In this document: piece by piece, positions 5,719-59,292 of the stretch
How the letters are laid out: every line of letters begins with the position of its first letter
Numbering within the stretch: the stretch's first letter is position 1
DNA from: Selaginella tamariscina
Lineage: Eukaryota > Streptophyta > Lycopodiopsida > Selaginellales > Selaginellaceae
Direction of reading: 5' to 3'
Assembly: GCA_003024785.1 (NCBI GenBank)
Contig: PUQB01000435.1
Location: 148,612-212,611, forward strand
Length of the DNA stretch: 64,000 nucleotides
Notes under the pieces: model-generated
Seen by the model: only the letters and a program-made list of their open reading frames with translations
Database searches by the model: none
Told to the model about the DNA's origin: nothing
Made by a program: the position numbers and the translations under genes

Positions 5719-7721
5719 ATGGCGCAACAATCTAGCATACTACAGGGGCGAAAGCACCCTTCTTCACGGTGGTGGGACGAGGTAAATGTGCTGGAGAGCA
5801 GGGGGCATGGCCACAAACTATGGTCATGCAAATATTGCACAATGGTGAACAAGCTCAGTGGCGTTGATCGTGTGCGAGCTCATCTGTTGGGAGATGGCCC
5901 AAGTAGTAGGGATATCGTGAGTTGCCCCCTTATCTCAAGTAACAAGAAGGTAGAGCTAGTTAACATGCAAAAGGTTATTGACTCTGAAAAAGGCACAAGG
6001 GGGAAGAAACGGTCGAATGTAGAACTTTCAGTGCTAGTGGTATCATCCCATGCAAGTGGAAGTGGCTGCCTTTCCTCGTTGTTTAACAAGCAGAGCCAAG
6101 TCCATATTGTAGATTCGATGGATCCAGAGCAGAAGAGTCGAGTTTGATGTGGCGATTGGAAGGTTTTTTTGGAATGAACACATTCCATTTGTGAAGGCTC
6201 GGTCCCCTTACTTCCTCAACATGATCCAGGAAGTTGCCAGGCATGGTGTGCCTTATGCACCACCAAAATATGATGATCTTCGGGAGAAGCTTCTATTGAA
6301 AGAGAAAGGATTCATTGACGTTGAGATGGCATCCATGAGGAAGCAGTGGGAACAGAGGGGTGTAACCATATGCGCAGATGGGTGGGCAGATAGAAGGAAT
6401 CGGCATATCATGGGGCTTGTGGCATATAGTCAAGGACGAGTAGCTTTTCTGAAGGCTATCGATATTTCCTCAATAGGAAAAACAGCTGAGAATACTTTGC
6501 GTTGCTGGGAAGAAGGCATTAGCATTGTGGGTGCAGAGAACGTTGTCATGGTTGTAACAGATGGGGAAAATGCGAACAGAGCAGCAGCAGCAATTCTAAA
6601 ACAAAGGTACCCGAAGATTCAATGGGCAGCATGTTTTGCCCATTGCTTGAACAATGCCTTGAAAGACTTTGGTGAACTTCCATGGATGGTAATGCTTCTG
6701 GAGCGAGGAAAGGCTTTGGTGAGCTTCATCAGGAACCACTCTCATATGGTGGCACTGTTGGCGGAGTTTACTCACAAGCGAATGCTGCGCTATTGTGATA
6801 CGCGGTTTGGTTACAATTTCATTATGATGGAGAGGCTAGTAGAGCTCCGGGAAGCTCTACAACAGATGTTTGTATGCCCTGCATACAAAGCAAGACCTGA
6901 GTCGAAGACGAGAGCAGGCAAAGACAGTTATGAAACTGTTTTTGATGATCATTTTTGGGAACAGGTTAAGGACATGTTAGAGGTGTCCAAGGATGTTATG
7001 CTGCTACTTCGTCTTGTGGATGGTGATATACCTGCGATTGGAAAAATATATGAGTGTATGAACAGGTTGGATGCAAGTTTAGAGGAAGGACAGTCGGATT
7101 ATGGCAGGTACATGGAACTTCATCAGATCATGTCTAACCGGTGGCATGAGTATCACTCGCTCATGCACTCGGTGGCATATATGCTGGACCCCGAGTTTCA
7201 AGAGCATGAAAAACATGCCAATAGAGAAGTCATGAAGGATTGGAATGCTTATTTGTCGGCCATGTTTACATCTAGTGAGAGGGACGTGATACGGGATGAG
7301 CTTTTAACTTACAGGAGGATAGGAGGCATTTTCAAATCGATTGATGCTAAGGCTGATCGCACTAGGAAGGGAGCTGTACGTTGGTGGAGGACTATGGTTA
7401 TGAAATTCCAGCTCTTCAGAAGTTGGCCATTCGAGTTCTAAGTCAGGCATGCTCATCATCCTCGGTGGAGAGACTGTTTAGCACTTTCGAGCATGTGTCT
7501 TCAAAAAGAGGAACAGACTTACTGTGGATAGGACAGTAGATCTGGTTTTTGTGGCTTGCAATAGCAAGTTGTTAACTTGCAAAAATGATTGTGACTACGA
7601 CAAGTTTGTGAGCTACAAAGTACTAGAGACAGTTCCTCATCCGGAAGACGAGCTTGAGTCAGGAGAGGAAAGAAAGATGGAGACAATGTCGAAGATTGTG
7701 AGGTTGAGGATGTTTGATTAG
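5719..7721 (+). pseudogene. hAT-family transposase (BED + DUF659 + hAT-C), frame-broken
   Basis: Catalyses cut-and-paste transposition of the surrounding element. The start MAQQSSILQGRKHPSSRWWD (5719) leads into a BED-type zinc finger (LWSCKYCTMVNKLSGVDRVR then AHLLG). After a +1 break near 6140, a DUF659-like domain follows: CADGWADRRNRHIMGLVAY, then VMVVTDGENANRAAAAIL and WAACFAHCLNNALKD, the conserved acidic and C/H-rich hAT blocks. A second break near 7395 and a third near 7510 (an AAAAAG run) split off the C-terminal dimerisation segment, whose expected LSQACSSSSVERLFSTFEHV is legible across frames. Upstream, 5400-5700 has possible untranslated exons with short introns. Total length of about 650 residues is normal for hAT. 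The breaks are single-base and may be real decay or assembly error. Confidence 0.85.
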
Positions 7722-7746: not shown

Positions 7747-7796
7747 TTCTAGAATTAAAATTAGAATATTCTTAGAATATTCACTAGAATATTCGT
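7747..7796. promoter_or_regulatory. GAATATTC cluster in hAT right end (HSE-like)
   Basis: Alternating GAA and TTC triplets two or three bases apart (AGAATATTCTTAGAATATTC and ACTAGAATATTC) resemble plant heat-shock elements (nGAAnnTTCn). Comparable blocks lie in the other mobile elements of this window. A regulatory function is inference. Confidence 0.45.
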
Positions 7797-14759: not shown

Positions 14760-17700
14760 ATAATTATATTATATATTATTTAAAATGGAATGTTAATTTT
14801 AATTATTTGTGTGTGTGTGTGTGTGGTGTAATCTATAGTCATGTTTGTACATGCTATAAAATGTTGATATATTATCTTTTCATTATTTTTGCTTATAATC
14901 TGAAATTAAAAGATAATAGCTGGTTTAAATAATGTACTGTATATAGGTAATATACGCTCATTGATATTCGTCTTGAATAATGTAAAATCTCGCTCCATTG
15001 TGCATACTGGATTATTGACTTATTCTTTCATACTTTTGTAATATATTGGGTATTTGCATGTGTATCTTGATTGTATGTGTGCATGTGTGACTTAAGTGTT
15101 GCATGTGTCTGTTGAGTGCATGGATGTGTGTGACTCTTGAGTGTTTGTCTATGTATCAGGTCATATGTGTGTCTGTGTGTTAAGTCTCAAATGTAGGTGT
15201 ACAAACACAATATTATGTGTATAATGTGTTAATGGAGTGTTATTTAAGTTTTAATTAATAGTATGTATTAGATGTTCTTAAGGAAGCCCTTTTGTGCTTT
15301 ACTAGTACATTTTCATGAGTTCTTTTTGGCAAGCATATTGTTATATGTATGAATATAAAACACATATAACACACACACATACATATATGTGTGCATGTGT
15401 GTGTTGTGTGGTGTGTGTGTGTGTGTGGTGTGTGTGATATTAACATATATATATATATTTTTAAATGTATGTTCAAGTTTGGTGATTATTAACTTAAAAA
15501 TACTTCAAATGAAATATCGACTACAATATACATTTTAAATAGTTTGTCAATAAATTTTGAATATATATATAAAATAATTTAAATATTATAATGAAAGACA
15601 ATTATGATTAAATTAAAGAGAAAAGAAAAAAATTATACTTTTTAGAATCATGACCTGAATCAATGAATATAATTTAATGAAGGCATAAATATAATTTGTG
15701 AAATAATTTTAAGAAAAAATTGATAAAGAATGTGTGTGAAAAAGATTAATGTTGCTTAAATATTTTTGTTTCTTTTATTTTTAATTTTCAGAATTAGATA
15801 TTTGTAAAACATTATAATTTTAATGTTATTGATTTGGATAAAGTACATTAACAATTAAAAGACAATTATAAACATTAAGACATTAAAATTATTTAATAAG
15901 TCACATGAATGCACACACATAAATATTAAGGTGGTTTTAAGTAAGTCATGTATTTACATATTTTATTATGAAACATCATAATTATATTTTAAATACATAT
16001 GTGATACCTTTTTTCCTTTTCATTTTATTTTTTTAAAAAGATGTTTTTAACAATTTCAAATTGACTGTGCAAATTACATTGTAACTTTATTAAATTATAT
16101 ATTTGATAATTTTAAAAATGTTTTGATTTCAAAAACAATTTTATTTCTTTTTCACATAATAAAATTTCTTTTACTAAGTCAAAACATTAAAAATAAATAC
16201 ATTAAGATATTTAATAAGTCTTGAGTATGTATGGCAAACGTATTAATTAATGTATATTTTTAAATTCATGTTAAAATGTGTAAGTTATGGTTATTATTTT
16301 AAAATACTTTAAATAAAACATTTTAATAGTTTATTAGCAATTCTTTTAATTCTAATATCTTATGAAATTCTATTATGCAAAACAACTTAAATTATAATTA
16401 CAAAGATTAAATACTTTTTCTTAAAAAAATCACAAACTAAATAATAAATAGAAAGTCACAAATATGTTTTGTAAAATGGTTTAAAGTTCTTATATATATT
16501 TTTTTTTAAAATAGAAAAAGAATGTATATACTAATGTAATTTGTTTAATACATATCAAAGAAGAAAGATTACCCATCACTTATAATATATTTTAAATGTC
16601 ACATGTATTATTTTTAAAATTATGATTTAATAATGTTTTTGTAGTGTGTGTAAAAGATAAGAAATAAAAAGAATATTTTGTTTTTAAATTAAAAATTAAA
16701 ACACCAAATATATAAGTTTGATTTATAAAATAATTTTTTAAGTTCTTAATCATTCCTTCTTTCAAAATAAATAGAAAATCACATATGTATATTAAAATAT
16801 AATTAATACATATTACACCTACATGTTTGTGTGTAAATATATATTTTTTTATAATTGAAAATCTTATAAATTTATGGTGTGAAACAATTGTTTAAAGAAC
16901 AAGTAATATAAAATAGTTTATTATTCATAATTAAAAAGTTTATAATTAAGAAAAATAAAACAATATGCTTTAATTTTATTAAATAAACAAAAGTAACTCA
17001 CTTCCTTAATAAGGAAGAAATTAAAAGCTTTTGAAAATGACAAAGAACTTATTAATTTAAAAGAATATAAAAAAATTTAAGTTAAAAGATTAAAATAATT
17101 TATTATTATATTGTGCCTTTACGAATAATGTTTAATTCGTTTTGCATCATACAAAATAAAATAAGTTAAAAAAACTTTTTTATTGAACTTGTTTAAGTCT
17201 TATAAAAACATTAGTAATAAGATGAATCATGAATAAACTTTGAAAGTGTTATATATATGTGTGTGTGTTGTTTACACTTTATTAAACAGAATGTATTAAA
17301 TTCGTGGATGTAAATGCATTTGAAATTCAAGAAAAGTTTAAAGTAATTTATTAATATTTATACTATTAATAATAATGTTTAAATTATTTTACATAATACA
17401 AAATAAGATAGGGTAGGAAATCTATTGTAAACAACAATAAGAAAAAATTTAAATAATATTTAAAAGTTTTTTTTGATCATAAGACTTTTAATCATAAAAA
17501 CACTATTGTTAAAAGATAGTTAAATATTAAAAAAAAAATTAGACTTTCTTATTACTTGTCATTTAAACAAATATCTCATACTGTAAATGTATAAGACTAA
17601 AAATCATATATTTACATAACATTACTTGTTTAACTAATTTGTAACTTATTTTGAATATTATAAATTATAATTATATTATTTAATTAATGAATTATTTAAT

Positions 17701-19820
17701 GTATGGACTTTGATGATGTGTATATGAAAAAGAATATATTTTTTTTAGAATTCTGAGTAAAATAACTAAATATATAATTCGATCAAGGTATGAATGTAAT
17801 TTGTAAGACTTTCTTAAAATTTTAAAACATTTCTTCTAGTATATAAAATTTGCATAAATTATATATTAGCTATATGGTTTATGTTAGTTGTTTTATTTCC
17901 TATATATAAAGTAGAATAATTATATATTAAAAAGAATTTGTAAAAATATATAACATATAAATATAATACATATTTATTTCACTAACATAATAAAGATATC
18001 TCTTAACAAACTCATACCTAAGGTATTATATTTCCTTACCTTTTTACATAAGAAAATTTGATGGTTAGTGTGTTTAATACATATAATATTTGTGTATGTG
18101 TGCATGTGTATTAACTCACCTAAAATGAAATTTCCATTATTGAATATATTCATCTTAAAATAGTATTTTAATATTTCATCTTTTAAAGTTAATATCTAAA
18201 GGAAAAAAAAATAATAATAATTACCATCTTTTTCCCAAATAAACACATAAGGAGAGAGATTATTCAACATTTATAAATGTATTTTATATAATGATTTTTG
18301 TATAACTCATGAAAATATTTTTCAGCTATATCATATTTATAAAACATAGAGTGCACCTCCTTATAAGTGTTTAATGCGTATTGCTGGATGGTAAAACTTG
18401 AGTAACACCATTAACATATTGTATATATATACTTTAATGTTTTAAAGTTTATAAGCAATTTTTCACTAATAAGTATATGAATTATGTGAAAAGGTTATCC
18501 ATATATTAAAACAAATTAAATTATTATTATTCATAATGAGAATCTTTAATTGAATTTTAACACAATATGCACCATAATCATAAGATTAGAAAGTTTAGAA
18601 TAACATATTTCATATAATAGTCTTAAGGCAACTTACATAAATGTTTCATAGTTATTTCATGAAACTTTTCTATAAATATTTAATCTATATTAATGATTGA
18701 AACTTGAATAATACTTTATTAATATATTATACACACGTACAATTATATAGATGCATTTGTCTTTAGTACATGATTAAGATAGAATTATTTTAAAAAAAGT
18801 ATCCTTTGTAATGTTCTATTTAAAAATAATTATCTCAAAAATCATATCATAAATGTTACACGATAAAGGTTTTTTTTAATTGAAAAAACATGTTTTGAAC
18901 AATTTCTTTCTTATAAAACCAATTTTAAAATCATATTGTTGAAATTATTTTAGATAAACTGTGTAAAGATCACATTTTAAATTCATTAAAACCGTATATA
19001 TTGTAAAACCATTTACAATACCAATTGCTTTTAGAAACCAATTGCTTTTTATTTACAAAACCATTTCTCAGACTATAAAAATTTATAAAAATCATTATTA
19101 AAATCATATTAAATATACCAAGCCATTTTTTAAACTATAAAAAAACCAATGCCAAAATTTTTAGCTAGCCCTAACTATTTTAAAAACCATTTAAAATATT
19201 ATAGCTGTGTAAAAAACATATGATTTTAAAAAAACCTACGATGTGACTTACTACACCCATATGCAACCTTGTACACACATTAACACTCGAGAGTCACACA
19301 TAGGCACACACTCAACACACATGTAGACAATAGAGTCACACAAGTGTATATAGTCGAGATACACATAATACACACCACATATAAGACTTGAGTGATCAAA
19401 GTGTGAAGGAATATATGCATATATGTGTGAAAAAGTTGACAATTAAGCATACATGGCCGAACAAGGGTTGCACGACAAAACATGTGTGAGAGAGCCTACA
19501 CGGATGAAAAGCTTCTTCATTATTGAAGAACAGTATCTGAAACCTTATATTATTTATATAGTTTACAAAGCATGTGCATGTGCATGTATTCAAATTATAA
19601 ACAAAAGTAATGAAAATATATTCTTCAACAAAAAGATTAATGTGAGAAATTTGAATTAAAACTTTCAAGAAAATATAAATCATACCTAACATGTAGTAGC
19701 ATTTTGCATCTTAACGAGTACCAGCATTTTTGTAATATATACCGATATAATTATAGACCATAGCATAAAGCTGTACAAAATTATCGTTATATACAAAATC
19801 TATTATGTTATGTTATGGAC
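14760..19820. other. Long AT-rich gene-free region
   Basis: About 5 kb of very AT-rich sequence with scattered GT tracts (14806-14826, 15385-15440) and no credible coding exon on either strand. No terminal repeats, tRNA or long tandem array were seen. Confidence 0.7.
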
Positions 19821-19824
19821 GTTT

Positions 19825-20094
19825 TCATTGGACTTTGAATGCTCTCAACTTGTTACTAAACAAATCAAGTACCTCCAAAGTTCTTAAACTTAGGGGAATT
19901 GAATCAGACAACATGTTTCTAACAAGTTTGAAGAATTTAAGAGTGTAGAGATTGCCTATGTGTGCAGGTAATGCATGCTCAAATTTGTTGTATGATAAAT
20001 CCAGGAACCCTATTATACCAGGAACCTGTATAACTGACTTCCCCAAAAGACCATCCCATAGTTTACCCACCATGTTACTTCGAGTAGAACTCAA
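19825..20094 (-). pseudogene. Leucine-rich-repeat fragment
   Basis: A minus-strand frame of 89 codons with about three leucine-rich repeats in plant receptor style (GIIGFLDLSYNKFEHALPAH, IGNLYTLKFFKLVRNMLSD, LRTLEVLDLFSNKL). It has no signal peptide, membrane segment or kinase, and no extension is found on either side. It is probably a relic of an LRR receptor-like gene. Confidence 0.6.
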
Positions 20095-23235: not shown

Positions 23236-25484
23236 TTACCAGTAATCACCACATGAGCATATGCCTTGTTCATGAACATGAAACCGAGCTGCATCTCTAC
23301 ATACAATCCTTCTGTTCTCTGTCTCGGATACAAATGTGATGAGCCTATGGCAATCCTTGCAAACACGGAGGTTCTTAGTTATCCGTATTGTACCGCATGT
23401 ACTATTTACTAGAGCACAGGCTAGAGCAAGCTTCTCACTGTGGTCACACAAAGCATCTTCCTTCTCAGCATCAGGTATATTCCTACTAACACCCTCAACG
23501 TTTCCACTTGCCTTAAACTTGCACATAATCTCTCTTAACTTCATTCTTATTTCATCACTCTGTGGATGACTCTTATCCCCGACTACAAAATAATGTACCT
23601 TTCCGCTTTCATCAATCCACCAGCTCTTCCCAGGCTGCTGTTTCTTCCATGCCTTTGCATCGTTTCTCATATTCTCCACTCGTGCTTGCTCCTCCCACAT
23701 GCCTTTGCTACCGTAGATGCTCGACATCAGTGCATATGCTGTAACATCGCCACGGTCCATTTCTAGTAGGGACTCAAAAGCAAGCGTCCCTACATCATGA
23801 TTCTTCCACTTTCTACAAGCACTTAGTACAATTCTCCATGTAACAATGTCCGGTTTCATTGGCATCAATCGCACCAGTGACACTGCATCATCAAGTCTAC
23901 TTGCTCGGAGAGTATATCAACCATGCAACTGTAGTGTTCTATCCCCGGTTTGACACTGTAGTCCCGCTCCATTGCAGCAAAGAGCCTCGCGCCTTCCTTT
24001 ACAAGACCAGCATGGTTACAAGCTGAGAGAATACACATAAACGTGACACTGTTGGGAGACACACCATCGTCCTCCATGAGGCGGAAAGAGTCGAAAACTC
24101 TACTGGTGTCACCCTGCGAGCTATAGGATGCAACGAGGGAAGTCCAACTCACTAAGCTTCTTGTAGCTATCGACGAGTCGAACACTTGTTGACTGTCCAG
24201 CAAACTCCCACATTTTCCATACATGTCCAGCAAACTGTTGGAGAGTATCTCGTGAGCCTCGAGGAGATCGCTTCTACATATCTCTCCATGTACAGCCTTT
24301 CCGAGTTTCAAATTCACAAGAAAACCACAAGCCTTGAGAGCTGAAATGTAAGAGACAGAGTTCGGCGGACAACTCATCCGTGAGAAGAGTTCCAACGCCA
24401 TCTCGGCCTGCCCGTTCTCCACGTATCCCTGCATTAAGACGTTCCAGGATACCAAATCTGGAGATACCATACGATTGAAGACCGTATAAGCATCTGTTAA
24501 ACTCCCACATTTTGCATACATATCTATCAAGGTGTTAGCAATGAAGATGTCCCGGTCGAAGCCATGCTCTGCTGCATGTGAGTGTACCTCCATTCCTTTG
24601 TTCATCCATTTCAGTTTTACAACCTTGTCATTCACTTCCTGAGTAGCAAGGTTACTGCATGCCTTGAGTGAAGCAAGAAAGACCTGTGCATCTAGTGTGT
24701 GTCCATCAACCGATCTCATAAGATCGTATAACTCTAGGCAAGTCTCGGGCTCCCCATTGTGGATAATATCCCATCATGAGTGCAGTCCAAGACACAGGGG
24801 CGTGTTCTGGCATCTTCATGAACACAAAGTATGCATCCCTCATGCTTCCACACTTTGCATACATGTCTACCAGAGTGTTGGCAACATAGATACTGGAATC
24901 GCTTCTGCGTTCTATTGCTGCTGCATGAACTGCCATTCCCTTCTCTAAAGTATTGAGCTTTGTGAGTTTACCATCAATCTCTCGCCTTTCTCTCTTACTG
25001 AAAGACTTGTACAGGCCTTAAGTGCAGCCACAAAAGTCCGAAAGTCAGCTGCATTTTCAGAAGCTGCTGCAAGCATCGTTGGTCAGGTGCGTGCGTGTGC
25101 GTGTGCGTGTGTGTGGTATACATGTATACACACCTTGCATGGACTGGAAAACTTCAAGTGCTGTTTCTCCTTCACCATTGTCAGCATATCCAAGGATTAA
25201 AGCATTCCACGAGACAACAGTGTGAGAGAGCATTCTATCGAAGACACGCCTGGCCTCCACCATGCTACCGCATTTGAGTACATACTAATCAGAGTGTTTG
25301 CGACGTAGACGTCTGTATCCTCTCCCGTTTCGACTGCTACAGCATGGAGTTTCTTCCCCTTGTAAAGGTTCCGTGAGCTAGCGCATTCCTTCAGTGCAGT
25401 GAGTAGGTTGGATATGCTCGATTCTACTTGTACCTTGTGCTCCCGCACCTTGATGAAGATGTGTAATGAGCTGCGAATCCACAT
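23236..25484 (-). CDS. PLS-class PPR protein with E and DYW domains
   Basis: Organelle C-to-U RNA editing factor by family. Repeats in the PLS pattern read through several frames: VANTLISMYS, VVSWNALILGYADNGEGETA, VANTLVDMYAKCGSMRDAY, IANTLIDMYAKCGSLTDAY, SWNVLMQGYVENGQAEMALE. The C-terminal E region (TWRIVLSACRKWKNHDVG) leads to the DYW deaminase: HSEKLALACALV then CKDCHRLITF gives the zinc-binding H-x-E...C-x-x-C set. The protein ends CSCGDYW (stop near 23236). An intron with (CA)n lies at about 25072-25133. Single-base breaks near 23880, 24750 and 25270 disturb the frame. All domains are otherwise intact, so this is either a young pseudogene or a good gene with sequence errors. The N-terminal transit region could not be placed. 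Confidence 0.85.
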
Positions 25485-43500: not shown

Positions 43501-44109
43501 TATCGTCTGAATACACCCATACACACCTAAATATCACTAACACATGGAATTACACCTCAATTAAGCATTACATTCACACGTATGAAAAACCGTAAGAATG
43601 TACACAAGAAACCCTTGAGAATTAAGGTAAATAATTAATTTCCCTTTAGTTTCTTATATATACACGTTCTAAGAGAGAACCGTGTTCTACAAGTGTCCCA
43701 CTAGATCCACTAATTAATGAATAAATGTTTTTTATAATAATAAATTCATGTAGACAACTTTGTACATAGTAAACAAATAAAAGTTTATTACTATAAGTTA
43801 ATGATATATATATAAACTTACGGGCAGATTGCCGACGACGGGCAGATTGACAAAGGGACCAGCTTCCTCCACAGGCGCAAAATTTTCATTAAGAAAGAGG
43901 GATTTCTCAGCGGCAGATTTGTCGAAGAAAGCGCGAACAATCAGAGATTCAAGCGCGTCACAGAAAGCACTTGCGAGCCTGTTAGAAATTCCAGGCTTCT
44001 TGGGCTGCACAATTCTTACTCCCGGAGGGGAATTTTCATGATTTGTGGACCTGTCATGTCTTTCTTTCCTGAATTCTTCGTTCCCCATGTTATGTTTCTT
44101 GTTAAACAT
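40585..44109 (-). CDS. Carotenoid cleavage dioxygenase, CCD1-like
   Basis: Fe(II) dioxygenase that cleaves carotenoid double bonds to give apocarotenoids and ionone-type volatiles. It starts near 44109 ([20 protein letters not shown]) without an obvious plastid transit peptide, as in cytosolic CCD1. Hallmarks in order: [113 protein letters not shown], ending EDQLQNQY. The four iron-binding histidines are visible in the TAHPK, MMHDFA, FHTANA and GFHALF blocks. There are about a dozen short introns, several with CA repeats. Minor one-base breaks occur (for example near 41655 and 42735). Substrate specificity cannot be read from the sequence. Confidence 0.88.
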
Positions 44110-44149
44110 TTGGCTTTAGGAACTTCTTTATAGACTGAGGGTGTCATTG

Positions 44150-46950
44150 CTAGCGTGTGTTTTAATCTCCGCCGTACATGAGAGAATGTGGTGGAGAGCG
44201 CAGAATCAATCGCTGTCGTTTACGATACTGTTTTACATCCACTGCCTCAAAACATCGGATAATTATTATAAATATAATTATAATAAATTTATTAAATAGT
44301 AGATATTCTTAATGACAGAATTATTCAGCGTCTCGTATATAGTGTTATTAATGAACTTTTCCTACGTGTTTATCTGCTGGCCATTGGATGAGATGGCATG
44401 TGTTTATCGATGGTTTAAATTATTTCTTTAAAATAATTAAAATATAATAGTACATGCAACAATGTTATAAAAATTCTTGTGCCTGTTATGAATAATCTTT
44501 ATAGGAGCAACTTTAAAATAAACCTGTAACACACGTATATACATTATACACTCTCAGTACGATGATATATATATATATATATATATATATATCCTGAGTA
44601 ACATACACACACACACTGGCATAATTTATAGCTTAAACCATTAGTTCATATATAGTTAATAAATTATGCGGGTCTTTATTTCATTTATAGCTATAGACCA
44701 AACGAGATAATTCTATTTTTAAATATAATTTTTATTCACATAGTTTTTATGTTATTTATAAAATATTATTATTTATCAATTTATTATATTGCATGCTATA
44801 TTATTAAGTCATGATGTACTGGTACGTTTTAAACATTACAGAATTTCACTGATTCACTCAAATAAAAATGTACTCAGAAGGTCAGCAATTGCGTGTGGTC
44901 GAACAATCTTATTAATTTGGTGTGGAGTATAAATACACGTACACGTACATATGTTAGTTACTTGTGTATGCGTTGCATGAGACACCACGCGCACACACAC
45001 GACTTCTAGATGCTAAACATACTGGTAGACGTGGAGGAAACCCTCGTATATATCGATGTAGAAAGTATGTTTGGATCATTTGAAAAAGACAATATTGAAT
45101 TTACAATTTGAGTAACGAATAAACATTAAATATTGATCTATATGTACAATTTTATTTCATTATCTGTTTAGTTTAATACTTAATTGTAATATGTTTGTAA
45201 GGTAACTACAGTAAATATGTAAATTACATTACAATATGTATGTTTTGACGTGCATACTTAATTAGACTCTAATTAAATTGAAACACACTTTAATTAAATT
45301 TAAATATTAAGTATCATAACTATAAGGTCAGAAGGTTAAGATATTATTATTAATATTAAAATTGTTATATATAGTCTCACTTGAGTGGTTTTTCACTCTA
45401 AATTTTTAAAGCTGTGATTTAGAATCTCACAGTTTGAAACAATGTAATTAATACCAAAATTAATGGAATTAGAGCAATCTTAAATTAAATTTTAATTATT
45501 TGTAATTAAAACTACTTTGTGATGTTTTACTACTCAAGTTATGTAATTTAAATTGAAAATTAAAAAAAAATTTAAAATATTCTCATTAATAGCACTTAAC
45601 TGGTTTTAGTTTAGTTTAGATTTTTTTTTTTAAATATTTATTTCTAACTTTAAAACTAGGACCACTTAATTAAGTTTTTAAAAAAAAATTATTGATTGAC
45701 TTTTGCTTTTGTTTTTTTTTTAATTAAAAATAGAAAAAATACTACAACAATATTAGAAAAAACACCACCCTTGATCATATTCAAAAATTGAAAATAAAAT
45801 TCTTAAGATTATTATATTTTTTGTATCTTTAAGGAACAAGAATTAAAAAAAATATATTCAATTCAATTCGTTTAATAATAATATTCAATGGTGATTTAAA
45901 AACATTGTTGAAAAACTCATTAAACTAAAAGTTTTTAAACCTTAATAATTAAATAATTCAATACCTATAGAATGTCTTACATAGAAAATCACTCATATAA
46001 GATTCATTATCCCAATATCAATGATTTAAATTAACTTCATCTTAAAATAATAGTAATAGTAACGAAATATTAGAAAAAAATAAATTAATGATATCCTAGT
46101 ATATATTTAAGTCTTAAATTTATTTTGTTCATAAAATTTATTATAATTTATAACTTTGTTTATAAAATATAAAGTAAAAAGTAAATATGAAACAACAAGT
46201 ATATATGATTTAGATTTATTTCATCTTTAAAGAACTATAATAGTAAAAACTTTAAAATATTATAAAGATACCGAATATTAAATAAGGTTTTTAAAATATT
46301 TCATATACTAAAATTAACATAAATTTAGAATATTTTTAAAATATATTAAAATCTTCTAGGACTGCATGTACTAAAATCATATTAATGTTATTTTAAAAGT
46401 GATAAATTGTCAAATATTCATGTTTAATACTCACTATGAAATAATATACTATGTTGAAATGAGTTTTATAGTTCTCTTACAATAGCAATTATATTAAAAT
46501 AAAAATATAATAATATCTTACGTTTAAAGAAGCAAGACTACAAACAAATTTACTTAAAACTTAATTTAAAATATATAATTATAAAATATTTAATAATATC
46601 TTATCTTTAATGTAAGGGACTTGAATACAGATAATGCAAAGTCTTATTTAGATTTATGCATCCTACTACAAACGAGTTATATTTTTGGTACATCCCGTTG
46701 GACACACAATCTCTTTCTCTTTCTCTTTCTAAGATACAAAAAATATAATAAGAAGAGTTTTAATGAGTCATGAAAATTATCTCAATTGAAAAGGTTAAAA
46801 AGAGTTAAAAAAAATAAATTCAAATCAATTCGTTTAATAATAATATTCAACGATGATTTCAAAACATTGTTGAAAAATTCGTTAAACTAAAAAGCTTTTA
46901 AAACTTAATAATTAAATAGTTCAATACTCATAGAATGTATTACATAGAAA
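44150..46950. other. AT-rich gene-free region
   Basis: About 2.8 kb, strongly AT-rich, with (TA)n at about 44567-44592 and no coding signal. A segment near 45840-46000 (CAATTCGTTTAATAATAATATTCAA to ATAGAATGTCTTACATAGAAAATC) recurs at about 46815-46955 and in weaker form near 63510-63640, so a dispersed noncoding repeat is present. Confidence 0.65.
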
Positions 46951-46951
46951 A

Positions 46952-48281
46952 TCACTCGAGTTCAACTGATATAAGATTCATTGTCTCAGTTCTCGGCCCT
47001 CGCCATCTCTGTCCATCACGGCTCTTATGATCGATCTCCTCAGGACTGACTTGTGTCTTTGTCCCTTCAGCCACCTTCTTCCCGGTTTTCCACTTGTCAA
47101 CCATGGATGCCGCGTTTAGGTTCTGCTCGGCTCCACAAGGCCAACATATCGTTGGTACACCTGCACATATGCTTTCCTTGCCGAGTTCCATCCACAGTGA
47201 GTGAAGAATGCTCCAACTGATTCATGCCTCAACACATGCACCTGCATCATTCTACAACATTACATATCTTTCACACACACCCACGTAGTACCTGGGGAGC
47301 CCATTCCACGACCAAACCTTGATCACCAAATCCTCCTTAGCATCCAGAGCAAAGTTTCGTCTTAAAGCCCATAGAAATGGCTGGCCATTCGCTTTCACAG
47401 CTTGAGAAATCTTCTCGACTTGTGAGATACCCCACTCCCAAACGCAATATACAGCACCGTGTACTGTGCTTGCTTGTCTAGCCAGTTCAATACGGACATC
47501 TCAGGCTCTGTGAAACCAGCCTTGGCATCATCTTCGTCTGAGAAACACTCTGGAGGTAACAAAGGTCCCACCGGTAAGAACTTGAGCGCCGCACGTCGTG
47601 CGTCCACGACTTCTTGCTCGAGCTCCTCAACTGTGTTTATGAGAACGCATGCCGCCTCTGGAAAACGTCCAACTGCCTGTCCAAAAAGCCGTACAAAATC
47701 GTTGTTTATGGAGAGGCTCAATGCCCGGAAGAAACGTGATCAGTGTGCTGTCTTCCGGATTAGCTGAGAAAGTTGCGATTCATATGTTTATCTGTTTATA
47801 CATATATACAACTGACCGTAAACAGGAAGAAAGCCTTCAGAGACCAGTCGTGGAATATACGAGCAAATCACCTCAATGCGAACGCGGTCCGTAAGCAATA
47901 CAACTCTGGGAATACACAAACAGTTGGCCAAGTCCTGTGTCCATCCCAGAAATGATGCACCTGAGAGGAGTCTTCAAAGCTTGTAAAGCATGTTCCACAG
48001 CCTCTCTCAGCAGATGTGAGACTGGCAATGTGAGGTTCTCGGGCCTGGGAATCGAAACCAGGTCGATGTGTTCCTGTTGTAGCTTCAGCTTTGTGCTATT
48101 ATGTGAGTACAATGGAATATTAGAGGTTTATTTATGGGGCTAAATACAAGTGTAATAATCGTACTGTGAATACGATTATCAAATTGAATCCTAGTGGAAC
48201 TAATCTCCTCTAAAGCTCCACCATTGGATTGACATGGCCAGATTCAACCGATGGAATGACTGCAACATGAATTCTTTCCAT
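46952..48281 (-). pseudogene. UDP-glycosyltransferase, family 1, decayed copy 1
   Basis: Family-1 UGTs transfer sugars to small molecules. The start [10 protein letters not shown] (48281) is followed by [10 protein letters not shown] and an in-frame TAG where copy 2 has a Ser codon. Further blocks are RLVSEGF-like sequence, [56 protein letters not shown] and [20 protein letters not shown]. The UDP-sugar PSPG box is split by an intron ([20 protein letters not shown], then [20 protein letters not shown]). Frame breaks occur near 47430 and in the PSPG region, and the extreme C-terminus (GRELR to the end) is lost. The premature stop plus breaks indicate a pseudogene. It lies head-to-tail with copy 2 from a tandem duplication. 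Confidence 0.85.
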
Positions 48282-50794: not shown

Positions 50795-50915
50795 TTACAT
50801 ATTGGAACAGTGACTCAACCGGTATAACTAAGTATTTACTGTATAGAAAATCTATTAAAACTCTGCCATGTTCAATGAAAAATCAGCTTCTACCCCAAAC
50901 ACGTTGTCCTCCACA

Positions 50916-50924
50916 TAGCCCTCG
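50916..50924. repeat. Target-site duplication of MULE-like element, left
   Basis: TAGCCCTCG here is repeated exactly at 58678-58686 on the far side of the element. Nine bases is the usual length for Mutator-like elements. Confidence 0.75.
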
Positions 50925-50961
50925 AGTCCCGACAAAAAGAGGGCTTTCCGGGCTTGGACCC

Positions 50962-51020
50962 GGAATATTCTAAAGAATCTACCAGAATATTCTTAGAATA
51001 TTCCTAAATATTCTTAGAAT
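50962..51020. promoter_or_regulatory. Left-end GAATATTC cluster (HSE-like)
   Basis: Alternating GAA/TTC triplets (GGAATATTCTAAAGAATC, AGAATATTCTTAGAATATTC, ATATTCTTAGAAT). The spacing is close to that of heat-shock elements. The matching cluster is at 58576-58634 in the opposite end. Confidence 0.5.
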
Positions 51021-51134
51021 TTAGGATTTTGGCTCAGTCGGCAATTAACAACAAAAAATATTTAAATCATAGCCATGTTTATACTGTATTATTAAAGTTT
51101 TATTTCAACACCAAAGAGTACAATTCAACACTTG

Positions 51135-54100
51135 TCACTTCTTCTTACGATTGAGCAATGCTGCAATTCGTGAACCACCAGTCCTACTTGACGTCGCTAT
51201 TGGTTGGGTTGGGATTTCCTCTGGCTGGATGTTCTCTTTAATCCTGTTCATAGCAATTCTCCCGAGCTCAGGGTTCTTCTCAGTCCCAACAATGTTTCTC
51301 CCCAGCTCGATAGCTGCAAGCATTGAGGACCCCGTACCACTGCCTATATCCCAGATAAGATCACCTGGCCGGGTGAGTCGTTCTATCACGAGCTGCATCA
51401 ATCGAGTGCTCTTCGGTTGGTAGTCCATCCTGCATGTGAAGATAATGGTAAATACTTAAATTGTTGAAATGAAATGCCTACCATGGTTCTTGGAACCGCT
51501 CAGGATTATCAACAAGAATTGTTGATGACAAACGCAGCGGATTATCGCGCAATCCTCTAGATGCATCTTGGAAGACAAGAAGGAGCAGGATGCTCTCCTG
51601 TTAAAACATCAAAATCATTAATGAACTTCATGAATAAAGAAAAAAGTACCTTCATCTTGTTGCGGTAGCCCCAACCACGCCCTCTGTAGATGTAGTACGT
51701 TGCAGCAAGTTGAAGGTCCACCACACTTGCAGCTCGGACAACTTGATCCCAGGTGTTTGCTGCAGCAAACACAACCAACCAACCATTTGCAGCCATATGC
51801 ATACCTGCAAACTGGAGTGCTTCATCGAACTTCACTGGATCAAGGTAGAGGTATGGCGTATCACTCGTTGTATTTCCTGGCAAGGTCCCATTTGGAAGGT
51901 CGAAGATCACCAAGTTGAAACCATATTCTCCCGCAATATGCTGGTAGCGAGTCTGGCTGTCAGCTGTATGGTACCTGGCCACCTGTGTCTGAACTTTTCT
52001 ATAAGGAACCAGTCTAGCAGGAACCTCCTCTTCCTTCTCATCCGTGAGCACGGCCTGTTGCATCTCCTCGATGTCATCAATCGCCAAGAAATTATCACCT
52101 CGAGTTGTAGCAAGTGAAGGGACGAATGTGACCAAGTCATCCTTGATGTCCATGGTTCCCTGCGATGGTAGCACTTCAGATAAATTGAAGAAGGCAGCTG
52201 GATCGCGAGTAGTGGAGGTGCCAGCTACTGTATCTGAGGTCTTCTTTGACTGCTGCACAGGCTGACGCCGCTTTGCCTTGGCCTTTGTCTTCTTAATGAA
52301 GTCGACCTCTGCCGGATCCCATGAGATGCATGGGAGATCTTTTGAGTGTTCATTGTAGAGATCCTTCTCCCATGTTGGTGGTTGCCCAGGTGGATAATCA
52401 AGCCAGAACGGTACGTTTACACGTTCGAACTCTGTCAGGCCAGATCTTGTCTTCGACCACATGTGTGGTGCTTCCATGTAATCTGACCAGAATACCATAG
52501 TCTGTGTGTGAGGCACCTTTCTCGCTGCGACATACCTGTAATGAACATATAAGTAGTGTCAGAATGTAACATTGTCAAGAAGATCATCCTTACCTCCAAA
52601 TCATCCTTCTTGCTGTCTCTTCGTGTTCGAGGAACTCTTTCAGCTCTATGGAGTAAGTGAACTTCACACACTCATGGAATGGCTGGAACATCACGTTCTT
52701 GCATTTTACCCGCACTTCATCGTACCAAGTCGTGAAATCTGTAACCGGCCTGGTCCACTCGCCATCCTCGATGAGTCCCGTGAGAATCTGGACTGCCTCC
52801 TCTCTGATCGCTCGCCAATACAAATCGATAATAAACCACCTTATCCACTCCTTATCCTGAACACCCGGCAATCCAAGTGTCTCTTGCTCTCTCTTCAGTT
52901 CGAGACGTACCAGTTTATTGAAGTACATGATTCTCGTCTCGTTTGGAATTCTCGCCCTTGAAAGCGCGTACAGCTTTTCCAACCCCATCCATCTGCATTG
53001 TTTCCATGTGATTTGGGTCACCTTGTCGAACCACTCTTCACCCAATGCAGGATCGATGATGGCTAAGATCTTCATCATGCGCTTGTCATGCTTAATGTAG
53101 ACCTGTTGTTGCTCCTGGTATTTGTTGCCTTTGGATGCCCTTGCAGCCTTCTCAAGATCATCCTCAATCTCACTCTGTAATTCACAGACGTAATCAACTA
53201 AGTAATATAAGTGTGAGACGTGGTACCTCAAAAAAAATCTTTGCACAGATCAAATTCGGAAGTGGATGCCAAGCTTGTTGTCCAGTTGCGCTTTCCTTCC
53301 ACTTTCTTATGTCATCTCGTTCCTTGTCACTGAGCCTGGCCAAGATCTTCGCTGTGCCCTCCTCACTGGTGCAACATGTCTTCACAGATAGCAGAAGATG
53401 TGGCAGTGTGGTTTGCACTGCCGTTGCGGAGGAACTGCATATTTGAAAATCTCGAAGTTAGTTAATCCTATGATCTAGAGGTCACTATGTTTACCTATTA
53501 ATTTGCTGAAACATTGTCACAAGCTGAAGATTATCCACATCCAGCACGGCAGGAAACTCTCACTGCCCACTGATTCTTATCTTCCGTGTCTTCTATGTAC
53601 AGCTTCTGAAGCACCTTTAGCCTGTGATTACCATCCCAACAGATGAACTTCTTCATCGAAAGCATTGGTGCCCATTGCCGGAACATGTCAGACTGAAGCT
53701 CCTCCTCAAAAGCCAAATGCTGAGCATACATCGCTTCATCGCTTCTCAATGCTGCCAGATCTGCATCTGTCATGGGGTCCCCAACTTGAAGGATGAACTG
53801 AGTGGTGTTGCGCAAATAACCAACTGCCTTCTTGAAACTCCTAGTCAAAGATTCCAGATCCGCTGGATTGACTCTCCGCACCTGTTCATTTCCCAGAATT
53901 CGGCAAATAGGGACATCCGGTGCCTCTCCATATTCTCGGATTGTGATCTTCGCGAGAAGACGCACTGCACTCTCCGAATGCATTGGCTGCAATGTTGTAA
54001 ACTTCCTCATTATCTGGCACTTCTGCTTTACCCTTTTCTTCTTCTTAGCAGCCTCTGAATCTCCAGCAGCTTTGCGTCGTCTCTTCTTGTTCTTGGGTTC

Positions 54101-54439
54101 ATCCTCTTCGTCACTCGACAAAGTCACTGCGCATGAGGCTTGTGTGCCTTCTGTCTGCTCCTGTGTCTCCTGTGGTAAGACATCATCCTCAACTTCTTCA
54201 ACAAAGTCTGATTGTTCTTGTTGGGGTTGAACTACATCCTCTTGCTCTCCTGACCAGTCCTGCTGGCTTGCCTGTTCAACTGGAGCATCACTTGAAGGTC
54301 CTTGTTCCTGAACCACAGCCAGCTTCCTACTTCCTCTCCCACGACCCCGACGCCCTCTCTGAATTGCAGCTCTAGCTTCTGCTTCTCTCTCAGTAGGCTC
54401 CTTCATCTTCTTTTCTTGTAAACGTTGTGAAGAGCGCAT
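51135..54439 (-). CDS. ParB-like / beta-class DNA methyltransferase fusion
   Basis: Six exons (53495-54439, 53227-53434, 52594-53174, 51650-52535, 51482-51597, 51135-51429) with canonical short introns whose phases all fit, giving about 1,000 residues. The N-terminal 120 residues are disordered, with an AT-hook-like GRRGRGRGSRK, glutamine/acidic stretches and basic NLS-like KNKKRRRK and KKKKRVKQK. A ParB/sulfiredoxin-like segment follows, ending FICWDGNHRLKVLQKLY. The middle (exons 2-3) is helical and unrecognised. Exons 4-6 form an amino-methyltransferase fold in beta-class order: NLVIFDLPNG at the motif IV place, AANGWLVVFAAANTWD, GWGYRNKMK, then KSTRLMQLVIERL and motif I DIGSGTGSSMLAAIELGRNI with VGTEKNPE. 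The catalytic DPPY/SPPY is DLPN, so activity is uncertain. One frame break near 53555. Confidence 0.7.
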
Positions 54440-54519
54440 CTACAAAAGCAATAAGGTTTAACAAAAAACTGTAATAAATGTTCAAAGATGTTTAATAAAA
54501 ATAAAAAAACATACTAGCC

Positions 54520-54845
54520 CTCACAGTCGGCGTGCCGACTGAGAGAGCAGTTGCTGTAAGTCCCAGTCGGCATGCCGACTGGGCCTGCATCAAAGGGAGT
54601 CCCAGTCGGCATGCCGACTGGGCCTGGCAACAAAGGGAGGCCCAGTCTGGGACTGGGAACGAAGCGAGGCCCAGTCAAAATGCTAGGTGGGACTAGAACA
54701 GTCAACCCTAGTCAAAATGCTGACTGGGGCTGGAACAGTCAACCCCGGTCAAAATGTTGACTGGATCTGGAACAGTCCACCCCAGTCGGCCTGCCGACTG
54801 GGACGGACAACGAAGTCAGTCCGAGTCGGCAGGCCGACTCGGATT
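54520..54845. promoter_or_regulatory. GTCGGC palindrome array between divergent genes
   Basis: Copies of CAGTCGGCATGCCGACTG (54564-54581, 54603-54620) and variants (AGTCGGCGTGCCGACT, CAGTCGGCCTGCCGACTG, GAGTCGGCAGGCCGACTC), plus degenerate CAGTCAAAATGCTGACTG units, stand about 35-40 bases apart. The array sits 80 bases upstream of the ParB-methyltransferase start and 470 bases upstream of the transposase start, so it could be a shared promoter or transposase/ParB binding site. Confidence 0.85.
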
Positions 54846-55312
54846 TCTTGCAACTGTGAAGAGATGTAAAAAGATGAACAGATCATGAAGAGATCATGAG
54901 CAGATCATGAAGAAATCAGAAAATACTCACCCCCTCAATGGAAGCCTATTGTGATTAATCCCTGGAGCCACACTTGCTCCACGCTATGCCCCCAAATGAG
55001 CCCCTGCTCCACGAAAACCTAGCCGCCCTAGCTGCCCTAGCCGCCCTAAATCAATTAAAAACCAACCTAATTTCTGTAAACATATTGCATGCATGATCGC
55101 CACTTGTACATAGTAAAACTTTTTAATTTACAAAAAACCTACCCAGACGCAGTAAATTAATTTCACTCTTCTACCCAGACGCACGCAATTAATATTATTT
55201 TTAATATTTGTCAATGAAATGATTGCCTCACGACTAACAAACACATTAACCATCGTGTGTAATATGTTCATTGTCTTTGAATTTTAACTTTTGTTTGTTC
55301 CATTTTTGCTAC

Positions 55313-58300
55313 ATGGCAAGAATCAGCTACAATGGTGTTGACAAGGACTTCCCTGCAGATGAAGATGGTATTGCATTTGTCTTTGAAACAGATCTCAGGT
55401 CTGCATTTGACATTCCACCTTGGCAATCTTTTAAAGTGCTGCATTTGATGTCTGTTGTTGGTGGAGATGCTGCGAATGTTGAGGTAGAACCAGAAGGGGC
55501 AAGAGCTAGCAGTTTTGTGTATTACACACTTCTTCCTTCCAAAGGACCATATTCCGGTTGGAGACAACAGATCGGGACAATTCTATGGTAACAATACTTC
55601 GCAATAGTCAGAGATGTAGGATTGGGAAGCAACTGGTGGTCTCGTCATCGATTCAGCAAGTTGCTGAGGTCCCAGAAGATTGCAACGGAAATGTGATTTA
55701 CGAGTTGCCAGCACACGAAACAATGAAGGACAAGTACAAAGGGATGAATAGGAAGGATGGGTGTGATTACTGGACTCAACGCTGCACAACACATTGGAAT
55801 GTTCCAGCTCGTGTTAGTCGCAGTTCATGTATTGGCCACATGAAATGCGTAAAGGAAACATGTCCGTTCATCAGCTTAAGTAAGAAAGCAAATGACTGCC
55901 AATTTAAGGGCACCATTGATAAAGTCCAGTTATCTTCAGATGGTAGAGTGCTTGGAATGAAGTGTGTGCATTGCAACAATGAGCCCCTTCTAGTGCAGAC
56001 ATGCTCCGTTGTTGCATATTACATAATTCCAGATGATATCACATGCACGAGGCTTTTCATCCATCTTGGAGAACATCAACATCCACGTAGACCACCCGAA
56101 TCCATGGTCTCTAAAGACAGAGCTAAGGAGACAATCAACAAAGCAGTCGCTGCAACCCCAAGAACTAATCAACGTGTCATAGAGTTTCAAGCAGCACGCA
56201 ATATAATTTTGGAAAAACTGGTAACAGATTCTGGAGATGTATCATACGACAAGGTTCTGTCAGATCTACTACCACTCACAAATCACCGCCGGTAAGCAAA
56301 AAAATTATTATTTCCTTTTGGAGATGCTTAACCTTTCCACTGTAGAACAAGAGAATGGATATCTCAGGCTAGAACAAGAGACACTCGTTTCAAAGAAGGT
56401 TACGAAGGACTTCTGCAGTTAAAGAAGAAGCTATCAATCCCATTCATACATGTTATCCACATACCCGGAATGGACCTCAACGGAGCTGAAGAGCAGCCTT
56501 TAATCTTCAAAATGACGGTTGCCGGCCCAGGATCCGGAATAGACTACATTAGAAGGTGTCAATCTGGAGGTGATCTCGAACAGCAGTGGGTGGTGCTAGA
56601 CCACACATATCGTATTGATGATTGTGTACACTGGGAATACATCTCTATGATCCATTGTAAGTATTAACATATCTATGTTTTAAAATACTTACTAATATAA
56701 TGCACTTATGTTTGTGTAGTTTAAGGTCGATGGTGACACTTGCTTATGGTGACATGATCAGGGAGGATAGTGTGGCGGTGATCAAATTTTTGAACACTAT
56801 GCTTCAAGTGTGCAGCAAGCAAGGACTTCATAATGTGAACTTTGCGGGGTTCATGTCAGATGAGTCAGGTGCAATTTGGTTAGCATTGCGTCAAGTTTTC
56901 AACAATGGGTCAAAGATGAAAGGAAGAGAAAGGAGTTGTTTGTTCCATTACATGCAGTCAGTGCGTCAAGTTACAAAGAAGTGGATACTTGAGGAACACA
57001 GGGAGGAGCACATGAACCTTGCACGCTCATGGCCTGCAGCACTAACCAACCAAGATAAGTTGGAACGACGAGTAATGTTGGAGTCATTTTGGGAAGGCAG
57101 GTCCAGTAACGTTAGCGCTTTGCAAACATGGCTGTCATGGTGGGCAAGACATGAAGATCATATTTCCATGACAGAGATAATTGACTTGACAGAAGATGGT
57201 GTTGCGAATGTGCCTACCACTAACAACTCCGAAGTTGTTCATGAGCACGAAGAGCAAGGCTGACGAAGCGTGTTCCTTTGTTGGAGGCAACAATGTTAGA
57301 TTTAACAGATGCTGTTTTCCAAAGTGCAAAGGTCAAGGCATCATTTGAAGGGAGATATTCAGGCACAGGTCCTTCCATGGAAACTCTTCTGAAACGTGCA
57401 CAGCAGAAACTTTCAGCGGGAAAATCAGTGTCTCCAACAACTTTTGCAAATCTTGTTAGTGATGAAGAGCATCTTGCAAGTCCAGAGTTTGCCTCTACAA
57501 CAAATGTTCGTGTTCGAACCGTTCGTCAACCGTCAACTGGGGACCATGGGATTGATGCTTCGTACACATAGACATGACACACAATATGCAGAACAAGTCA
57601 TCCCAAATGCACGCAGGAAAAAACTCAAGTTTCAAGATGTCAATGTCACTGAAAGAGAGACGTTGATGACTCAGTGGGCCATCAGACGCATTGGGGAGGC
57701 AAGTCAGGTGAAATGTCTAGGTCTCACTCAGGACGGTAACAGCAAGTGTGGCAGACCCATAGGATATCCACATCGTGTACCGGCACCAGGATTTCACGGT
57801 AGACGGCAATATACAAATGCATTTGGGAACATTGAGTTCACTCATCAGATGTTATGGTTCTGCCCACGCGATTCTTGTTGCTTCAGACGACCATATGCAG
57901 GGATTCCTCCTGAGAGTATTCCAGAAGTTCCAGAGGTTTGGCCAGTTCAAAAAGGAACAAACTTGAATGCAAATGAGGTTGAAGCTCTTCTGAAAGCAGG
58001 ATTCAAGTTGGAGGGATTTGAAGAAATGGTAGACGACAGTAGTAGCCGAATGGATCGAACACCATCACCACCAAGAGGAGAGGGAGCACATAGAGTACCA
58101 ACATACCATGGACGGAGTGTGCGAACACCAACAAGAATGTCCAAGGAACATGAGAAACATTACAACCAGGCAAAGATTCTTCAAGGTCGGATCAACAACG
58201 TGGAGGTGGTTCAAAGAGGGAAGACTGAGGCCTTCATTGTCTCTGCAGGCATGCAATCTGCTAAGGTAACAATTTACTGTTCCGTCATGCACTTGTGCAA

Positions 58301-58479
58301 CTTTTCAGAAAGCCAAGAACTGGAGCCCCTGCCAACACATGTATTTTGTGTACACTCATGTTCTTGGATTGGAAGACCCAACGATTACTTACTTCTTACA
58401 GAGGCGGACCCTTACTCCAGCAGAAGTGCATCGGTTATTGGTTGATTGCAAGCGCAATGTCGAACCTGCGACCTTTTAA
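55313..58479 (+). CDS. MULE-like transposase with WRKY/GCM1-type zinc finger
   Basis: The start MARISYNGVDKDFPADEDGI (55313) leads through a one-base break near 55575. A Cys/His-rich DNA-binding domain follows (CDYWTQRCTTHWNVPA, CIGHMKCVKETCPFISLSKK, MKCVHCNNE, FIHLGEHQHPRRPP), reading like a WRKY-GCM1 finger. After introns at about 56292-56345 and 56658-56718 comes the transposase core: WVVLDHTYRIDD (first D), NFAGFMSDESGAIWLALRQV (second D) and RSCLFHYMQSV (C-x-x-H block). The third acidic residue probably lies in the helical part that follows. After breaks near 57262 and 57560, a second Cys-rich block (VKCLGLTQDGNSKCGRPIGY, LWFCPRDSCC) and the last exon (58309-58479, FLQRRTLTPAEVHRLL, stop) finish a protein of about 920 residues. 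The family is close to Mutator-like transposases but unusual. Confidence 0.7.
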
Positions 58480-58575
58480 GTCAGTCGGTATAGTAAAGTC
58501 TAGTCGGCAAATAATTAGCGTTTTTCACTTGTTGGTCGGCATTTTATATTGAAAGTTAAAGATAATCTACTTGGC

Positions 58576-58634
58576 AGAATATTCTAGAATATTCCCGTTT
58601 ATTTGACAGAATATTCCTGGATATTCGGGAATAT
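58576..58634. promoter_or_regulatory. Right-end GAATATTC cluster with perfect HSE
   Basis: AGAATATTCTAGAATATTCC contains four alternating GAA/TTC triplets at exact two-base spacing, a textbook heat-shock element. It is followed by AGAATATTCC and ATATTCGGGAATAT. Confidence 0.55.
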
Positions 58635-58677
58635 GCGAAAAGCCCGTTGTACGAAGCCCGGTTTTTGCTAATCCTCG

Positions 58678-58907
58678 TAGCCCTCGCATGCCAAGGCTTC
58701 TAATAAAGCAAATTCTTCCGATCCAGCAACATGCTCCGATGGACAGGACACTCTCTCTGCATAGTCTGCAAATATATATAACTGCGTGCGTGCGTGGTTA
58801 CTCACTTCTCGTGTAGAACTTTGTTCCTTCCTACGGACTATTCTCAAGCGAATATACCAACTATGTCCGGGAGTCATCACCGTGACAGCTTCAAGAAACA
58901 AAGACAA
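58678..58907 (-). pseudogene. Host open frame interrupted by the MULE-like element
   Basis: The minus strand is open through VTVMTPGHSWYIRLRIVRRK and, after a possible intron with (GC/GT) repeats (about 58755-58805), SEHVAGSEEFALLEALACEG. The frame ends at the element. If the flank at 50860-50924 is placed directly after one copy of the target duplication, the frame continues as VEDNVFGVEADFSLNMAEF and a stop. I do not recognise the protein. The plus-strand gene at 58862 overlaps it, so only one of the two may be real. Confidence 0.4.
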
Positions 58908-59292
58908 GTATTGAGATCTTTTATGAGCGTTCAGCCTCCTGCAAGGAAAGTATGTATATATATACTAACTAATTAAACAATAATAAGTACCAGCGGGAGC
59001 CTGCAACTTTGGACGAGGTGCTGCGAACAACTTCTGAGAAACCGTTTATCTTCCAGAGGAAAGCGTGACGCCCTATGAGATTCTTCACCTTGTTGAACTT
59101 GCAGGAGAGAGCATACGGTATGCATACGTAATTCCCTTCCATAGCAATGGTTTCACTATAGTTGATGTGTGGGACTATTCTTGTAAACGTCTGCTGTCTC
59201 TGCTGCGCATTCCCAAAGGTTGCATTTGCTCAGCACATCGTCATGTCATAGGCTTCATTTGCATCAATCGCATTAGAAAATCAAATACATAG
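58862..59292 (+). CDS. Unrecognised small spliced gene
   Basis: MSGSHHRDSFKKQRQVLRSF (58862) continues to PPARK, a GTATGT donor near 58950, a CCAG acceptor near 59000, and REPATLDEVLRTTSEKPFIF. After a one-base break near 59067, VTPYEILHLVELAGESIRYA and GFTIVDVWDYSCKRLLSLLR follow, with a stop at about 59292. The second half has a weak beta-rich, WD/F-box-like look (VDVWDYSCKRLL). A TATATATA sequence lies 90 bases upstream. The MULE-like element ends about 180 bases upstream of this start and could affect its expression. Confidence 0.45.

Follow-up and report, generated by a model that had tools for sequence, protein, structure and literature searches.

How a gene for a bacterial-type DNA methyltransferase comes to lie opposite a transposase gene in the lycophyte Selaginella tamariscina, and what such a gene might do there, is the question raised by one locus in contig PUQB01000435.1 (assembly GCA_003024785.1). 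The window, the whole stretch that we analysed, covers 64,000 nucleotides (positions 148,612 to 212,611 of the contig, forward strand), and all positions below are those of the window. Within it a segment of 7,753 bp (50925-58677) is, close to certainly, a mobile element. The minus strand of this element carries a spliced gene that almost certainly encodes an N6_N4 DNA-methyltransferase domain, a damaged transposase gene runs in the opposite direction, and an array of palindromes separates the two. We propose that the methyltransferase gene may act as an accessory gene through which the element, probably a Mutator-like element (MULE), protects itself against silencing.

The segment is bounded by two exact copies of the 9-base repeat TAGCCCTCG, and the flank stretches that were compared share no longer exact match. 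When the last CG is counted as part of the element, 5'-CGAG opens both ends, and a 7-bp duplication is therefore also possible. The element ends are related as imperfect, gapped inverted repeats across about 90 bases. In a gapped inverted alignment the terminal 100 bases scored 55, compared with 43 for the best of 500 shuffles (0/500 as good), and the terminal 40 bases scored 24, a value reached by one shuffle in 500; part of the end-to-end similarity is AATATTC-rich sequence. Removal of the element and one repeat restored a minus-strand open reading frame (ORF) of 115 amino acids that spans the junction, with 92 and 23 residues from the two sides. The joined ORF matched MATH_2 (PF22486, profile positions 42-135 of 136) at E 8.8e-4; its 20 bits fall short of the curated cut-off (32). 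The unjoined stretch, interrupted by the element, gave no family match at E 1. Adding an upstream exon by eye brought the E-value to 4.1e-8 joined and 2.3e-5 unjoined, for a query that is inexact (residues were omitted and one is not encoded by the DNA). Because joining the flanks restores an ORF with a weak MATH-domain match that is absent from the unjoined stretch, we regard the element as very probably a genuine insertion that disrupted a host gene; this gene is very likely MATH-like and was hit in its last coding exon. The initial annotation had described a mobile element with these boundaries, a 9-base target duplication and related ends; the boundaries proved exact, and the empty site adds to the evidence for mobility. 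A 32-bp stretch of the left-end repeats also matched 7763-7794 with 94% identity, about 320 bases downstream of a second transposon-type gene (6113-7441, plus strand; DUF659 domain, E 1.3e-38). No second copy of the element was found within the 64-kb window.

The minus-strand gene consists of six exons joined across five GT-AG introns of 60, 52, 58, 52 and 52 nt. Its predicted product is about 1,010 amino acids in all, with 713 open residues past one frame break in exon 1. The C-terminus matched N6_N4_Mtase (PF01555) with E 7.2e-9 and 36.3 bits over profile positions 165-220 of 221, and the score was 36-40 bits across query versions against a cut-off of 26.7. PHROG 67 (DNA methyltransferase) was matched at E 2.5e-11, and four more PHROGs, named DNA methyltransferase or methyltransferase, were matched below E 1e-4. 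Alignment with hhalign against 31 ParB-methyltransferases gave a score of 50.6 over 62 columns, whereas the best of 100 shuffles reached 26.4. The archaeal-virus protein L001, a member of PHROG 67, aligned over 199 columns with 25% identity, 73 of 50,697 phage records matched the methyltransferase half at E 0.01, and the solved structures of DpnA and MboIIA were weak matches (E 0.002-0.003). A set of 5.8 billion proteins yielded no homologue at E 0.01 among the 7,997 scored candidates, those with the most words in common, and homologue scans of viral_contigs gave no match. Both the divergent six-exon gene and the amino-methyltransferase fold of the initial annotation are thus confirmed, the latter by profile search. 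Three other interpretations of this gene were rejected. Exon 1 matched CDC45 (E 0.006 and 0.05), but below the cut-off and over an acidic low-complexity stretch; a host gene lying beside unrelated repeats is at odds with its position within the target duplication and divergent from the transposase; artefactual exons are at odds with an open frame of 713 residues and with five introns that are all of the GT-AG type.

The palindrome units between the two gene starts are spaced 37-40 bp apart in six of seven intervals. Five exact GTCGGC-NN-GCCGAC cores were observed where none was expected (100 shuffles), in agreement with the GTCGGC palindromes first noticed here. Counting GTCGGC or its complement, there are 13 in the element, ten of them within the array, and 12 in the remaining 56 kb. 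Dyad pairing in the array was 68/80 compared with 60.5 under partner shuffling (0/2,000 shuffles as high; a core-less unit near 54641 was excluded), a figure that overstates independence because duplication links the units. Those at 54670-54744 resemble sister copies produced by amplification, which leaves about two paired changes (columns 8/15 and 3/20). Among the sister units column 10/13 is unpaired in 3/3 and column 9/14 in 2/3, which speaks against kept symmetry. At 54670-54765 three units have GTCAAA in place of GTCGGC, and the other arm is changed in a partly matching fashion. Three adjacent units carry arm changes of G to A and C to T, the kind expected from deamination of methylated cytosine, with one changed column that does not fit. 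The GTCAAA units may possibly record a decay of methylated cytosines and a later amplification.

Transposases of MULEs have DDE motifs, a C-x2-H between the second D and the E, and a GCM/WRKY-like N-terminal zinc finger, and the MULE/MuDR target duplication is about 9 bp. The candidate motifs and Cys/His clusters of the plus-strand gene are, we presume, of this kind, and the 9-bp duplication has the MULE size, although 7 bp is possible. In Pfam, none of the tested pieces matched a transposase family, MULE or otherwise, to E 10; the only matches were weak, below the cut-off and to unrelated families, such as Fer4. In the 5.8-billion-protein set there was no homologue at E 0.01 among 6,791 candidates. 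The reading frame contains three changes apart from the introns, and since the gene is broken the present copy is probably not self-mobile. The spliced MULE-like DDE transposase that was originally proposed therefore stands as regards its candidate motifs, introns and divergent layout, but its frame is damaged and a Pfam transposase match was lacking. Assignment of the element to the MULE-like group seems to us reasonably likely.

These features suggest the following course of events. A cut-and-paste DNA transposon, most likely MULE-like, would have entered the last coding exon of the MATH-like gene. Its divergent accessory gene would encode a nuclear protein with a ParB-like DNA-binding front and an N6-adenine or N4-cytosine DNA-methyltransferase end. 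The palindrome array would be a docking site for an element-encoded protein, either this protein or the transposase. The accessory protein would bind the array and add a foreign base mark, which might keep the element promoters open against host silencing or ready the element for transposition. Self-targeted anti-silencing through an added base mark is, we infer, the best-supported mechanism, and we give about even chances to the reading of the gene as a self-targeting anti-silencing accessory of a MULE-like DNA transposon. In the full and more specific version, a land-plant transposon would use a ParB-methyltransferase to write its own mark, N6-methyladenine (6mA) or N4-methylcytosine (4mC) and thus foreign to plants, on a parS-like array of palindromes, and would in this way evade or rewrite host silencing by 5-methylcytosine (5mC). 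That such a bacterial-type system of self-marking works in plant nuclei appears unlikely.

Several results weigh against the proposed self-marking, and the first group concerns the ParB part. A candidate box, FICWDGNHRLKVLQKL, is present at 53600-53647 in exon 1; it resembles the ParB/Srx GxHR box and its surroundings fit by eye. However, the stretch had no Pfam match at E 10 and no PHROG match at E 1, and its three matches to phage proteins were at chance level (E 6 to 8). We aligned it by hhalign with the 31 ParB-methyltransferases in four overlapping query forms (242 amino acids, 175 amino acids, the inter-motif stretch omitted, and the box alone). Three of the four placed FICWDGNHRLKVLQKL on the GHTR box of the phage proteins, at scores that shuffles reach, and the 242-residue query aligned elsewhere than at the expected box. 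The score of 14.9 compares with 18-21 for the ten best of 100 shuffles, and the scores of the trimmed queries were reached by 26/100 and 14/100 shuffles. A single-sequence fold of this part had a predicted local distance difference test score (pLDDT) of 38, too poor to use. The ParB motif of the initial annotation could thus be located as a candidate box, but Pfam, PHROG, hhalign and the fold gave it no significant support. We nevertheless hold it likely that the front part is a ParB domain, because the same pairing has been published for an algal transposon (PMC12477816).

A second group of adverse points concerns catalysis. The family match is restricted to the AdoMet-binding C-terminus, to which further methyltransferase families show weak similarity as well (all below cut-off), and motif IV is atypical, whether it is DTPY or DLPN. 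The catalytic motif IV of beta-class enzymes is [DNS]PP[YFW]. Here one candidate, FDLPNG, lies behind a hydrophobic stretch, and the other, SDTPY, follows 13 residues further on; in an alignment of five sequences DTPY fell on the DPPY, DIPY and DPAY of phage enzymes and is favoured. An atypical motif IV beside a conserved, C-terminally placed AdoMet motif I, together with the position of the array between divergent gene starts, would also fit an accessory protein that does not methylate. It would then be a DNA-binding regulator or a partner of the transposase, its fold would bind DNA or cofactor, and the palindromes would be operators balancing the divergent promoters. This alternative is unlikely in our view: motif I is well conserved, DTPY retains D, P and Y and aligns with phage DPPY or DIPY, and for a published relative the predicted product is 4mC or 6mA (PMC12477816).

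The distribution of GTCGGC is a further adverse point, since outside the array the motif is not enriched in the element (3 there, 12 in the remaining 56 kb; p 0.25). Of these three, one lies near the left end and two near the right end. The presence of the motif near both ends as well as in the array would fit a methyltransferase that aids transposition directly, instead of countering silencing, by methylating the array or the ends and so timing transposase binding or replication-coupled excision. In bacteria, Tn10 and IS50 are timed in this way by Dam methylation. In addition, DNA nicking has been reported for a ParB-methylase of Bacillus cereus (PMC5512222). The occurrence of the three outlying motifs at chance level argues against a direct role in transposition, and we judge it distinctly improbable.

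Finally, frame breaks affect the methyltransferase gene and the transposase gene alike. Given its frame break and the atypical motif IV, the earlier statement that the methyltransferase gene is fully adapted to a eukaryotic nucleus was too strong for the present copy. MULEs are well known to capture genes, and a broken methyltransferase gene might be a host or foreign gene picked up by chance, in the manner of a Pack-MULE, with no role in the element. We think this very unlikely, as algal transposons are reported to carry a domain pair of this kind, likewise opposite the transposase (PMC12477816), and the palindrome array separates the two genes. Self-marking by the accessory protein remains the reading that we prefer.

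Table 1. Features of the element and of its insertion site (positions in the window).
Feature	Position	Strand	Remarks
Left target duplication copy, TAGCCCTCG	50916..50924	.	Identical to 58678-58686; empty site restores host ORF
Left end	50925..51042	.	Gapped terminal inverted repeat to right end; AATATTC-rich repeats; one GTCGGC at 51037
Methyltransferase gene, exon 6	51135..51429	-	AdoMet (S-adenosylmethionine)-binding motif I LIWDIGSGTGSS at 51324-51359; PF01555 match
Methyltransferase gene, exon 5	51482..51597	-	
Methyltransferase gene, exon 4	51650..52535	-	Motif IV candidates FDLPNG (in 51887-51919) and SDTPY (in 51836-51865)
Methyltransferase gene, exon 3	52594..53174	-	No family match
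Methyltransferase gene, exon 2	53227..53434	-	
Methyltransferase gene, exon 1	53495..54439	-	Basic stretches resembling nuclear localisation signals; ParB-like box; one frame break near 53550
Palindrome array	54522..54842	.	22-bp units, core GTCGGC-NN-GCCGAC; 8 units scored; between divergent gene starts
Transposase gene, damaged	55313..58479	+	Start codon chosen by eye
Transposase N-terminal Cys/His region	55822-56085	+	
Transposase introns	~56292-56345, ~56657-56719	+	Second out of frame on joining; another near 3' end possible
Transposase DDE-like motifs	LDHTY (in 56587-56622), MSDESG (in 56847-56879), CLFHY (in 56937-56963), TTNNSE (in 57216-57245)	+	
Transposase C-terminal Cys cluster	57714-57893	+	
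Right end	58503..58677	.	Two GTCGGC (58503, 58535); AATATTC repeats; gapped terminal inverted repeat to left end
Right target duplication copy	58678..58686	.	Identical to 50916-50924; empty-site join
Interrupted host gene, MATH-like	58687..59230, with 50850-50924	-	Element splits ORF ending in left flank

Elsewhere in the window, an ORF at 12379-13095 (plus strand) contains a DUF7869 domain (E 6.6e-27), and same-strand ORFs upstream of it, from 10413 onwards and the first of them without a family match, may share its gene or mobile element. The 3' part of a pentatricopeptide repeat (PPR) gene is found at 23236-23916 (minus strand), as an ORF with E, E+ and DYW deaminase domains (DYW, E 3.4e-31). 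DYW-type PPR genes point to a plant host, as do introns of 52-60 nt. Islands of very low G+C content occur at about 15000-20000 and 44000-47000, where 2-kb windows have 17-26% compared with about 31-48% elsewhere.

The initial annotation knew of no such gene as cargo of a plant DNA transposon; as a claim that precedents are lacking, this has to be withdrawn. Sola1-1_Ec32 of the brown alga Ectocarpus encodes a protein of 1104 amino acids, ParB-like with an N4C/N6A methyltransferase, on the strand opposite its transposase, and similar ParB-methyltransferases are mentioned for transposons of green and red algae with citation of Iyer 2011 and Petroll 2025; the idea of self-marking, like the gene type itself, is also already in print there (all PMC12477816). 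The Selaginella element shares with Sola1-1_Ec32 the opposite orientation of the accessory gene, the N4/N6 methyltransferase and a ParB part that is putative here, in a protein of similar length. It differs from that element, which belongs to the Sola1 superfamily and measures 21.5 kb, in its MULE-like motifs, smaller size and plant host; the two are likened by description, not by sequence. A land-plant case of a transposon ParB-methyltransferase was not found among the listed titles and opening lines of abstracts, drawn from a literature with few subscription journals. The land-plant host and the MULE-like vehicle are apparently new here, although land-plant cases could already stand in Iyer 2011 or Petroll 2025. 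If intact sister copies are active, the transposon-borne ParB-methyltransferases of brown, green and red algae would be extended to a land plant and to a MULE-like vehicle. Such copies would provide a plant system in which a mobile element places a bacterial-type base modification at defined palindromes, and with it a direct test of whether a bacterial-type mark counters plant silencing.

The order of domains, a putative ParB followed by the methyltransferase, is that of phage and bacterial ParB and N6_N4 methyltransferases (for example L005, Streptococcus phage vb_Spy_7). The phage protein L005, however, has 530 amino acids in a single uninterrupted ORF and a canonical DPPY, and detectable alignment of the element protein with this group is confined to the last ~62 columns. 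A bacterial-type N6_N4_Mtase (PF01555) with introns is likewise known in a eukaryote from N4CMT of bdelloid rotifers, which is described as a chromodomain-fused host gene that silences transposons rather than as transposon cargo (PMC8885841). Fungal KDZ, hAT7 and other transposons with TET/JBP also carry a DNA-base-modifying enzyme, but these are dioxygenases acting on 5mC and belong to a different enzyme family (PMC12730594). Eukaryotic 6mA made by MT-A70 enzymes, again a different family, has been linked to permissive chromatin (PMC12695648).

Among plant transposons the closest parallel that we draw is with the VANDAL elements of Arabidopsis. VANC21 of VANDAL21 binds clustered motifs in the noncoding DNA of its own element (PMC5735166), and VANC proteins bind such clustered motifs and remove silencing marks (PMC5735166, PMC10398659). 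The Selaginella element is likewise a plant transposon with a motif array in its own noncoding DNA, to which binding is proposed here. In contrast to the accessory protein with its methyltransferase domain, VANC as described is not a methyltransferase and lowers DNA methylation, and its YAGTATTAY motifs form same-orientation arrays, not palindromes (PMC5735166). The proposed self-marking would nonetheless resemble VANC anti-silencing in outcome, with an element-encoded protein acting on the arrayed motifs of its own element.

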